Positions 11,572-30,398 of a stretch of DNA of 31,154 nucleotides are shown one piece after another. Position 1 is the stretch's first letter; every line of letters begins with the position of its first letter. A program made the position numbers and the translations under genes. The DNA is taken from positions 1 through 31,154 of the IMG/VR virus record IMGVR_UViG_3300047510_002095; one strand, 5' to 3'. The DNA is from a virus. The notes under the pieces were generated by a model that saw only the letters and a program-made list of their open reading frames with translations, was not told the origin of the DNA and ran no database searches.

Positions 11572-11598
11572 AAACCTCCTCCTTCGGGAGGTTTTTTT
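11572..11598 (+). terminator. Terminator with UUCG tetraloop
   Basis: CCTCC (11578-11582), TTCG loop, GGAGG (11587-11591), then seven T. The last T is also the first base of a late promoter TATAAATA. It ends the polymerase-mazG operon. Confidence 0.9.
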
Positions 11599-26710: not shown

Positions 26711-26776
26711 AGGAGGTCCAAACTTCTCATAAATCCCACACCTCCTATGCCTCTCAACGATGCACAAACAGGGAGG
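26711..26776 (+). repeat. Competing hairpin arms in the tRNA-Arg leader
   Basis: AGGAGGT (26711-26717) pairs perfectly with ACCTCCT (26740-26746). The same CCTCC can pair with GGAGG at 26772-26776. The two pairings exclude one another. The interval 26696-26784 holds no clear gene; a 16-codon ORF starts at 26747. Confidence 0.5.
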
Positions 26777-26784
26777 TTCCTTAT

Positions 26785-26862: not shown

Positions 26863-26903
26863 TAGTTCAATTGTATAAATAATAATATATTTCCTTTGGA
26901 CTA
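26863..26903 (+). repeat. Inverted repeat enclosing the late promoter of HNH-1
   Basis: TAGTTCAA (26863-26870) pairs with TTGGACTA (26896-26903, one G-U). The loop contains the TATAAATA box and the right arm abuts ATG 26904. Confidence 0.65.
26874..26881 (+). promoter_or_regulatory. Late promoter TATAAATA
   Basis: Perfect late box, 22 bases before ATG 26904, placed in the loop of an 8-bp hairpin. Confidence 0.8.
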
Positions 26904-27455
26904 ATGGATAAACAAAAATTAATAGAATATATTGAAGATGGAATGTCAACCTCACAAATATCTAAACTTGAAAGTAAAGGAAAAACCACTGTTAGGTATT
27001 GGTTAGACAAATATCAATTAAAAACAAAACATAAAACATTTAAAGATGGATATATTTTAAATCCAATTTTAAAAGTAGATGGTAAACCAATTCAAAATTG
27101 CTCTAAATGTAAAGTTCTTTTGACAGAAAAAACTGGATATTGGCGTGAAAGTAAAAAAATATGGCAAGCAAATTGTAAAAAATGCCACAACAAATATTCT
27201 GTAGAAAGGTGGCAAAATAATAAAAAAAGAGCAGTTGATTATAAAGGTGGAAAATGTGAGAGGTGCGGATATGATAAGTGTATCGATGCTTTAGAGTTTC
27301 ATCATATAGACCCATCACAAAAAGATAAAAACTTTGGTAACATTAAAATACGAAAATGGGAAGACCAAAAAAAGGAACTTGACAAATGTATATGTGTTTG
27401 TTCTAATTGTCACAGAGAGATACACTCTAAATTAAGACTTGACACCATCGAATAA
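26904..27455 (+). CDS. HNH endonuclease 1 with N-terminal helix-turn-helix
   Basis: This is a 183-aa protein. Residues 1-35 (MDKQKLIEYIEDGMSTSQIS, then TTVRYWL) form a helix-turn-helix. A zinc ribbon follows: C-S-K-C about 68-71, C-K-K-C about 91-94. The HNH core has C-E-R-C, then L-E-F-H-H-I-D-P-S-Q, and C-S-N-C-H-R-E-I-H near the end, i.e. the beta-beta-alpha-metal fold. A free-standing homing endonuclease is likely, since it sits between tRNA-Arg and tRNA-Ala. It has a late promoter within a hairpin. No clear Shine-Dalgarno apart from the hairpin arm. Confidence 0.88.
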   Translation: MDKQKLIEYIEDGMSTSQISKLESKGKTTVRYWLDKYQLKTKHKTFKDGYILNPILKVDGKPIQNCSKCKVLLTEKTGYWRESKKIWQANCKKCHNKYSVERWQNNKKRAVDYKGGKCERCGYDKCIDALEFHHIDPSQKDKNFGNIKIRKWEDQKKELDKCICVCSNCHREIHSKLRLDTIE

Positions 27456-27691: not shown

Positions 27692-27720
27692 TTGACAATC
27701 TGGGTTTTATACCTTATGAT
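27692..27720 (+). promoter_or_regulatory. Early promoter between tRNA-Leu and tRNA-Gly
   Basis: TTGACA (27692-27697), 17-base spacer, TATGAT (27715-27720). GACAATC (27694-27700) and GATTGTC (27718-27724) form an inverted repeat spanning the promoter. Confidence 0.72.
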
Positions 27721-29011: not shown

Positions 29012-29040
29012 GTTCTAATTTTTTATAAATAAATTAGAAC
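29012..29040 (+). repeat. Perfect 10-bp inverted repeat with a late promoter in its loop
   Basis: GTTCTAATTT (29012-29021) and AAATTAGAAC (29031-29040) are exact reverse complements with a nine-base loop holding TATAAAT of the late box (29024-29031). It lies between a stop codon (29009-29011) and the HNH-2 start (29053). Confidence 0.85.
29024..29031 (+). promoter_or_regulatory. Late promoter TATAAATA
   Basis: Perfect late box located in the loop of the 29012-29040 hairpin, 21 bases before ATG 29053. Confidence 0.8.
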
Positions 29041-29052
29041 CTTTTAAATGAT

Positions 29053-29412
29053 ATGCCTTATAAAGATAAAGAAAAGCAAAAAGAAGCACAACGTCTTTGG
29101 GCTCAAAAACAATCTGGAGAATTTAAAAAAATTAAATACCAAAGAGAATATAATAATAAAAAGTTGATGGTTGAAAAACTAAATCAATTAAAACTTGAAA
29201 AAGGTTGTTGTGATGCTTGTGGAGATTACCATCCTCCCTGTTGTTTTGATTTTCATCATATTGAGGCAGAAAATAAGAAAAAGGAAGTTTCTTACTTAGC
29301 GGGAAAAGGATACAAATGGGAGACAATCCAAACAGAAATAGATAAATGTTATATGCTCTGTTCTCCGTGTCATCGTAAAATACACGCTGGTTTATTGGAA
29401 ATAATATGGTGA
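29053..29412 (+). CDS. HNH endonuclease 2, small
   Basis: This is a 119-aa protein. A basic Lys/Gln-rich helix (residues 3-45) precedes the HNH core: C-D-A-C-G, F-D-F-H-H-I-E (about 71-77), then C-S-P-C-H-R-K-I-H (about 103-111). The two CxxC pairs are zinc-binding; the D-F-H-H motif and final H are the metal centre. The stop TGA (29410-29412) is formed by the acceptor stem of tRNA-Ser, so this gene and the tRNA overlap by five bases. Likely a homing endonuclease. Confidence 0.85.
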   Translation: MPYKDKEKQKEAQRLWAQKQSGEFKKIKYQREYNNKKLMVEKLNQLKLEKGCCDACGDYHPPCCFDFHHIEAENKKKEVSYLAGKGYKWETIQTEIDKCYMLCSPCHRKIHAGLLEIIW

Positions 29413-29492
29413 GGTGGCCGAGTGGTTTAAGGCAACTGTCTTGAAAACAGTCGATGTGAAAGCATCCGAAGGTTCGAATCCTTTCCTCACCG
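29408..29492 (+). tRNA. tRNA-Ser (TGA)
   Basis: Acceptor GGTGAGG pairs with CCTCACC (29485-29491), G discriminator. Anticodon stem ACTGT-CTTGAAA-ACAGT gives TGA (reads UCA). Class II variable arm. The 5' end overlaps the HNH-2 stop. Confidence 0.95.
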
Positions 29493-30369: not shown

Positions 30370-30398
30370 CTACACTTAGAGTATAAATAAAAGTGTAG
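30370..30398 (+). repeat. 8-bp inverted repeat with late promoter in its loop
   Basis: CTACACTT (30370-30377) pairs with AAGTGTAG (30391-30398). The 13-base loop contains TATAAATA. The right arm ends 15 bases before the HNH-3 ATG. Confidence 0.7.
30382..30389 (+). promoter_or_regulatory. Late promoter TATAAATA
   Basis: Perfect late box in the loop of the 30370-30398 hairpin, 24 bases before ATG 30414. Confidence 0.8.

Follow-up and report, generated by a model that had tools for sequence, protein, structure and literature searches.

Is the endonuclease gene HNH-2 of a T4-like cyanophage kept silent until late infection by a hairpin that carries the gene's own late promoter in its loop? The gene lies in a stretch of 31,154 nucleotides (nt) of virus record IMGVR_UViG_3300047510_002095, referred to here in its full length as the window, and is preceded by a perfect 10-bp inverted repeat with the late-promoter motif TATAAATA between its arms. 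Promoter/hairpin logic of this type is established for phage T4 I-TevI and has been reported for I-TevII, I-TevIII, segB and Aeh1 mobE (PMC2988022, PMC3014915). The original prediction, made from the window alone, had carried this logic over to HNH-2. By motif and stem prediction, the predicted late promoter indeed lies between the two strands of a predicted RNA stem, which is the arrangement of a switch of the I-TevI kind, and the hairpin probably silences this homing-type HNH gene until late infection. A late-only translation lock is the best reading of the locus, at a probability of roughly 0.62. The strongest evidence for the element, drawn from sequence comparison, is its conservation with compensatory change in related loci.

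Pairing of the arms in the window and in related loci

The positions originally given for the two arms and for the motif proved exact (Table 1). The stem of 10 bp contains two G-C pairs and encloses a loop of 9 nt, and its 3' end lies 12 nt from the HNH-2 ATG at 29053; the motif TATAAATA and the right arm overlap by one base, 29031, and four T follow one base past the stem. The late 5' end would fall inside the right arm, near 29037, a position which we take from the layout of T4 late promoters. Perfect 10-bp stems with loops of 3–15 nt are not rare in such DNA (two in the window against a mean of 0.68, standard deviation 0.96, in 40 dinucleotide shuffles), so the earlier argument that a chance repeat is unlikely here was too strongly worded for the stem as such, while it holds for the placement. 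The isolated element folded better than its own shuffles (minimum free energy −8.2, p = 0.004, z = −4.9), and occlusion of the start region was lost when only the DNA upstream of the promoter was shuffled (p = 0.010, the floor of 100 shuffles).

Relatives of the HNH-2 protein are encoded at 57 loci of an IMG/VR scan (cited by L numbers), and Synechococcus phage DSL-LC02, from a phage collection, has both the HNH gene and the hairpin. Pairs were counted in 17 late-type loci, the window included, with nine distinct arm pairs; the late type takes in three variant loops, CATAAATA (L016), TCTAAATA (L018) and TATATATA (L029), and the count excludes L012 (upstream DNA the same as in L010), L040, the identical L003/L004 and the distant L034–L059. 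A MAFFT alignment of the copies was rejected for this purpose, the left arms being misplaced because loop lengths differ; the arms were anchored at GTTC/GAAC and the best-pairing anchor was chosen, which leans slightly towards pairing. Paired cells amounted to 96% against a shuffle mean of 85%, and double-sided changes were present at 6 of 11 pairs against 2.5 in shuffles, a value reached in none of 1000 column shuffles, which is no strict probability since such shuffles ignore relatedness. When the arms were slid by 1–3 positions, pairing fell to 22–57%.

An exchange of U-A for C-G was found in L026 and L033 and multiple exchanged pairs in L031 and L032, and the non-Watson-Crick cells of the late-type arms were seven G-U against four other mismatches. 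Comparison of the arms in relatives, proposed with the original prediction as a check, thus came out in its favour, the arms being conserved with compensatory and G-U changes. The G-U excess favours RNA pairing over a DNA palindrome, and both kinds of change together point therefore to RNA pairing, rather than to a symmetric DNA operator as the sole constraint. Among the distant copies, L034, L036 and L048 have GGTTC...GAACC or GTTC...GAAC beside the ATG with no clear promoter; others are without such arms.

An IMG/VR scan for the arms GTTCTAAT...ATTAGAAC gave at least 119 stretches, 80 of them listed. An HNH-2-family gene follows four of the 80 listed places (L163, L164, L219 and L230), whose loops hold TATAAATA in three cases and TCTAAATA in one, and the late motif was present in 0 of the 76 others. 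A scan for the exact element, with a single loop length differing from that of the window, gave five contigs, all with an HNH-2-family gene next; two of these contigs also belong to the four HNH-linked places. A general mobile promoter cassette, which the PeSL of Arbiol et al. is said to be, was considered and rejected, as among the places examined the arms together with the late motif were found only before an HNH-2-family gene.

Late and sigma-70 promoters in the loop and occlusion of the start region

The parent of the window is a 219-kb virus contig (G001), recognized by a 100-base probe match and by 100% identity of all three HNH proteins. Of the 346 phage records similar to a 6-kb part of the window, 339 carry the name Synechococcus phage, Cyanophage or Prochlorococcus phage, and a homologue of the late sigma factor gp55 was matched in all five genomes used (G001, DSL-LC02, S-WAM2, G003 and G004; E 1.1e-16 to 1.6e-22, identity 32–39%). 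To judge from these matches, the source of the window is a T4-like, cyanobacteria-infecting phage with a gp55 homologue; NATAAATA is given as the cyanophage late promoter in PMC2984593.

Of the 30 copies classed by promoter (28 loci, DSL-LC02 and the window), 18 have a late-type motif enclosed by the arms and 11 a sigma-70 promoter, while one has neither. In the sigma-70 copies, among which L024, L025 and L027 are near-identical, TTGACA-like and TATAAT-like boxes separated by 16–18 nt stand at the same place as the late motif. The HNH gene tree contained at least four class switches on well-supported branches, and five on the best tree; by this tree, the loop promoter switches class within one HNH gene family.

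Upstream-specific occlusion at p ≤ 0.05 was found in 15 of the 18 late-type copies against 1 of the 11 sigma-70 copies. The median free-energy difference (ddG) was 6.6 kcal/mol in the former and 1.4 kcal/mol in the latter (Mann-Whitney p = 7e-5, for sequences that are related and for a measured region whose start differs slightly between the classes, because the 5' end is placed by promoter type). Arm pairing in the sigma-70 copies was at shuffle level (0.69), with no covariation, and 6 of the 11 still folded better than shuffled elements, a strong stem being kept in L028, so the loss of the stem is partial. In the folding of isolated elements L031 was mis-registered (minimum free energy 0), though its stem is plain. 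An independent-pairs test on the tree yielded four pairs on well-supported branches (median p 0.25–0.5), too few for significance. Having two promoter classes in one family provides a natural experiment, because the sigma-70 copies should do without the lock if its role is late timing.

In T4, used as positive control, ddG reached 9 or more at 5 of 25 sites, those of I-TevII, I-TevIII, segB and e (two promoters), all of which belong to genes described as hairpin-controlled. HNH-2, scored in the parent contig, gave 11.5 (9.3 with a slightly different flank), and the read-through occlusion of its start region is thereby similar to that of these T4 genes in the same test. Across the five cyanophage genomes 6 of 105 sites reached 9, namely two HNH-2-family copies, an endonuclease-VII-like HNH gene and three others; among 58 late-promoter-like sites with a downstream open reading frame (ORF) in three cyanophage genomes, the lowest p was common to both HNH-2-family copies and two other sites. 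The endonuclease-VII-like gene (Pfam; L105, about 88786–89372 of G001) showed strong start occlusion (ddG 10.7), and the late-promoter gene beside it presumably encodes PsbA, from the start of its product.

Endonuclease genes exceeded other genes in ddG in G001, DSL-LC02 and S-WAM2 (13 against 45 sites, p = 0.0003), also when the HNH-2 family was removed (p = 0.0016), and the pooled contrast without that family gave p = 0.0025 (24 against 79). In these comparisons the endonuclease labels were assigned after the first ranking had been seen and were then checked by Pfam/PHROGs; three labels in G003/G004 rest on likeness to already labelled proteins, most of the 'other' genes were labelled by eye, and G001 site 214303, with a high ddG and no PHROGs match, was put under 'other'.

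A proposed late-only translation lock and its alternatives

In the proposed lock, a read-through RNA from the upstream tRNA/ORF cluster would contain both arms and form the 10-bp hairpin, whose 3' strand, at −22 to −13 from the AUG, would take up the upstream part of the 30S-covered region, so that the endonuclease would be poorly translated. A gp55-type late start at TATAAATA would give an RNA beginning near 29037, lacking the left arm and open for initiation. A promoter-like site upstream of the element, at 27692–27720, is a consensus match only.

The 3' end of the HNH gene overlaps a tRNA gene. Among the 25 of 44 copies with a tRNA detected by ARAGORN, the HNH stop codon lies inside the adjacent tRNA in 23 and within 10 nt of it in two; the overlap of ORF and tRNA-Ser gene measures 38, 37 and 48 nt in L001, L018 and L028, the first two of which have their TGA stop codon at the TGA anticodon. 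With the stop inside tRNA-Ser, a ribosome translating HNH-2 from the read-through RNA would have to enter the tRNA, and maturation of the tRNA 5' end would cut off the HNH-2 stop codon; a lock would suit a gene obliged to share its RNA with tRNA-Ser. The overlap suggests a testable reason for silence of the endonuclease on the shared RNA. Stumps of tRNA-Ser stand directly 5' of the element in L014 (72 nt) and L030 (22 nt); a complete tRNA-Ser is present at the other side of the cassette in L014, and the L030 contig ends within that tRNA. In S-WAM2 the upstream ORF and tRNA-Ser are both present, with a different ORF between them (frames read by eye). The stumps look as if a unit of hairpin, HNH gene and tRNA-Ser had replaced a resident tRNA-Ser, and they bear indirectly on homing by HNH-2. 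In the best reading, the element would be the part that controls a mobile HNH-endonuclease/tRNA-Ser cassette from its 5' end. More tentatively, and with the odds somewhat against it, hairpin and promoter class may co-evolve, with strong pairing beside late promoters and relaxed pairing beside sigma-70 promoters, and a lock lacking a Shine-Dalgarno sequence may protect maturation of the overlapping tRNA-Ser from ribosomes, much as I-TevI control protects its intron.

Several results weigh against the late-only lock, whose weak step is the translational block itself. None of the 19 copies tested has a Shine-Dalgarno-like tetramer, which occurs at 13 of 59 late-promoter genes from three genomes, so the hairpin hides none. 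With 20, 50 and 100 nt of RNA included 5' of the motif, occlusion of positions −12 to +3 was 0.2, 6.0 and 0.6 kcal/mol, whereas the region −18 to +6, which includes part of the right arm, was occluded at all three flank lengths (5.5, 10.1 and 5.8 kcal/mol). The upstream ORF ends with its stop codon directly against the left arm, where a ribosome that terminates could melt the stem; a stop at the stem base also allows coupling in place of a block. The 101-nt stretch around the hairpin folds unexceptionally (z −0.32); L017 and L033 are mismatched and without occlusion (p = 0.911 and 0.931), and L006 is marginal (p = 0.079). The T4 control missed soc (p = 0.941), and I-TevI was not among its 25 sites. 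The neglect of relatedness in the column shuffles counts on the same side, as does the endonuclease enrichment, which was not significant in G003 and G004 (13 against 34, p = 0.15), the idea that late promoters of endonuclease genes generally lie in hairpins being weakened by these two added genomes.

The other HNH genes of the window add to these objections. HNH-1 has the same layout and shows no covariation (paired fraction 0.875, a value reached in 690 of 1000 shuffles, with no left arm entered for L088); its element is weak in the window (p = 0.184) and gave p ≤ 0.02 in the relatives L089, L090 and L092. In the predicted fold a different hairpin wins over the HNH-3 stem (p = 0.856), which is probably not formed in the window. 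One lock common to all three genes was rejected as unconvincing at HNH-1 and HNH-3. A divergent HNH-3 copy (L063:40-97) has another stem, of 13 bp as predicted, around CATAAATA, with the right arm abutting the ATG (p = 0.010). Taken together, the I-TevI logic first claimed for HNH-2 is borne out by the late motif, the gp55 homologue, the conserved arms and an occlusion like that at T4 genes, and not by a hidden Shine-Dalgarno sequence; in terms of I-TevI/SegB, the layout is well supported and the mechanism only partly.

The palindrome covers the promoter and might instead be a DNA operator at which the HNH protein, or some other dimer, represses its own late promoter, as is established for I-TevI (PMC2988022). 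GGTTC/GAACC arms are kept in several distant copies and also, in part, around the sigma-70 promoter, which would agree with an operator; its half-sites, however, are altered by compensatory and G-U changes that keep the RNA pairing, the loop length varies among copies, and the likeness of the window element to the neighbouring tRNA-Ser, which might be the homing site, does not exceed that of shuffles (8 of 30 as good). Over 19 copies this likeness was clear only in L007 and L024 (0 of 30), L022 and L026 standing at 2 and 3 of 30, and an origin of the left arm from the tRNA T-arm was not significant in the window. We regard an operator as unlikely, and it could coexist with an RNA lock.

About as doubtful is another RNA role with little effect on HNH translation, such as protecting the 3' end of the upstream message, processing that message or weakly terminating it. 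The start of the hairpin directly after the upstream stop codon and the T residues past the window stem would fit such a role, as would the TATAAATA copies at window positions 11598 and 17216, which by eye follow directly 3' of an apparent GC-rich hairpin and T run in a terminator-promoter layout. The arms at HNH-2, on the other hand, straddle the promoter and do not precede it, the element is kept despite different immediate upstream DNA in L014, L016 and L017, and by eye no T run follows the stem in L010, L016, L032 and L033. An intrinsic terminator was rejected on the 2 of 10 G-C pairs, the four T and the T runs missing from the same four loci; a terminator scan did not return the stem, but the scan accepts only stems with three or more G-C pairs and loops no longer than 8, where the stem has 2 and 9. 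It is very improbable that the element lacks a present function and was retained through common descent, or because it forms the left end of a mobile cassette. With tRNA-Ser stumps just 5' of it in L014 and L030, it is the outermost cassette part there, and arms are partly retained in sigma-70 copies; the double-sided changes at 6 of 11 pairs and the weaker pairing beside sigma-70 promoters argue against mere retention.

Features of the window and comparison with known systems

The features are collected in Table 1. HNH-2 had no Pfam match at E 0.001. An Rfam match to abiF RNA (RF03085, 44.9 bits, gathering 37) was located at 26741–26777 on the plus strand, slightly 5' of tRNA-Arg and HNH-1.

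Table 1. Elements and genes around the HNH-2 hairpin and the corresponding candidates at HNH-1 and HNH-3 (window coordinates).
Feature	Position	Strand	Remarks
Upstream ORF, 83 amino acids	28760–29011	+	phrog_8074 (unknown function); stop codon 29009–29011 flush with left arm
Left arm GTTCTAATTT	29012–29021	+	expected in read-through RNA only
Late-promoter motif TATAAATA	29024–29031	+	in loop; motif match
Right arm AAATTAGAAC	29031–29040	+	exact complement of GTTCTAATTT
HNH-2 endonuclease ORF, 119 amino acids	29053–29412	+	PHROGs HNH endonuclease phrog_3106, E 1.3e-23
tRNA-Ser(TGA)	29408–29492	+	start 29407 by ARAGORN; first five bases are the last bases and stop codon of HNH-2
HNH-1 left arm TAGTTCAA	26863–26870	+	
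HNH-1 motif TATAAATA	26874–26881	+	
HNH-1 right arm TTGGACTA	26896–26903	+	abuts ATG at 26904
HNH-3 candidate CTACACTT / TATAAATA / AAGTGTAG	30370–30398	+	

A limited literature search turned up no report of a comparable cyanophage hairpin. As far as our searches go, the covariation, the promoter-class switching, the missing Shine-Dalgarno sequence and the stop codon inside a tRNA are new within the literature searched.

According to PMC2988022, the late RNAs of T4 I-TevI, I-TevII and I-TevIII begin within the hairpin and lose its 5' strand, as proposed for HNH-2, and I-TevII and I-TevIII are among the top of the T4 control; unlike HNH-2, these three genes are intron-encoded and have a Shine-Dalgarno sequence, about 8 nt before the AUG, that is sequestered, and I-TevI also autorepresses (PMC2988022). 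Late-promoter RNAs without the 5' part of an inhibitory structure are also described for T4 gene e (lysozyme), which encodes no endonuclease (PMC3014915). Like HNH-2, the mobE gene of Aeromonas phage Aeh1 is free-standing, encodes an HNH protein and has its promoter and hairpin similarly arranged (PMC2988022), and an inhibitory effect of the mobE hairpin was shown (PMC3014915); mobE differs in that its ribosome binding site is sequestered and in that it sits in a ribonucleotide reductase gene, as the titles cited in PMC3014915 have it. For a hairpin beside rather than over the start region, the nearest precedent is seg43(25) of Aeromonas phage 25 (PMC2988022), although it encodes a segD-like endonuclease and section 12 of PMC2988022 does not mention a loop promoter. 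T4 segB, a free-standing homing-type gene, lies among tRNA genes and has a predicted late promoter, with promoter and RNA structure arranged similarly (PMC2988022); it ends 5 nt from tRNA-Arg and gave a ddG of 12.5 in the same test (p = 0.069). SegB is a GIY-YIG and HNH-2 an HNH endonuclease, and HNH-2, whose stop codon falls within the tRNA, has no Shine-Dalgarno sequence for the hairpin to hide. A control design known from T4 is here extended to cyanophages, with comparative support beyond what one sequence gives.
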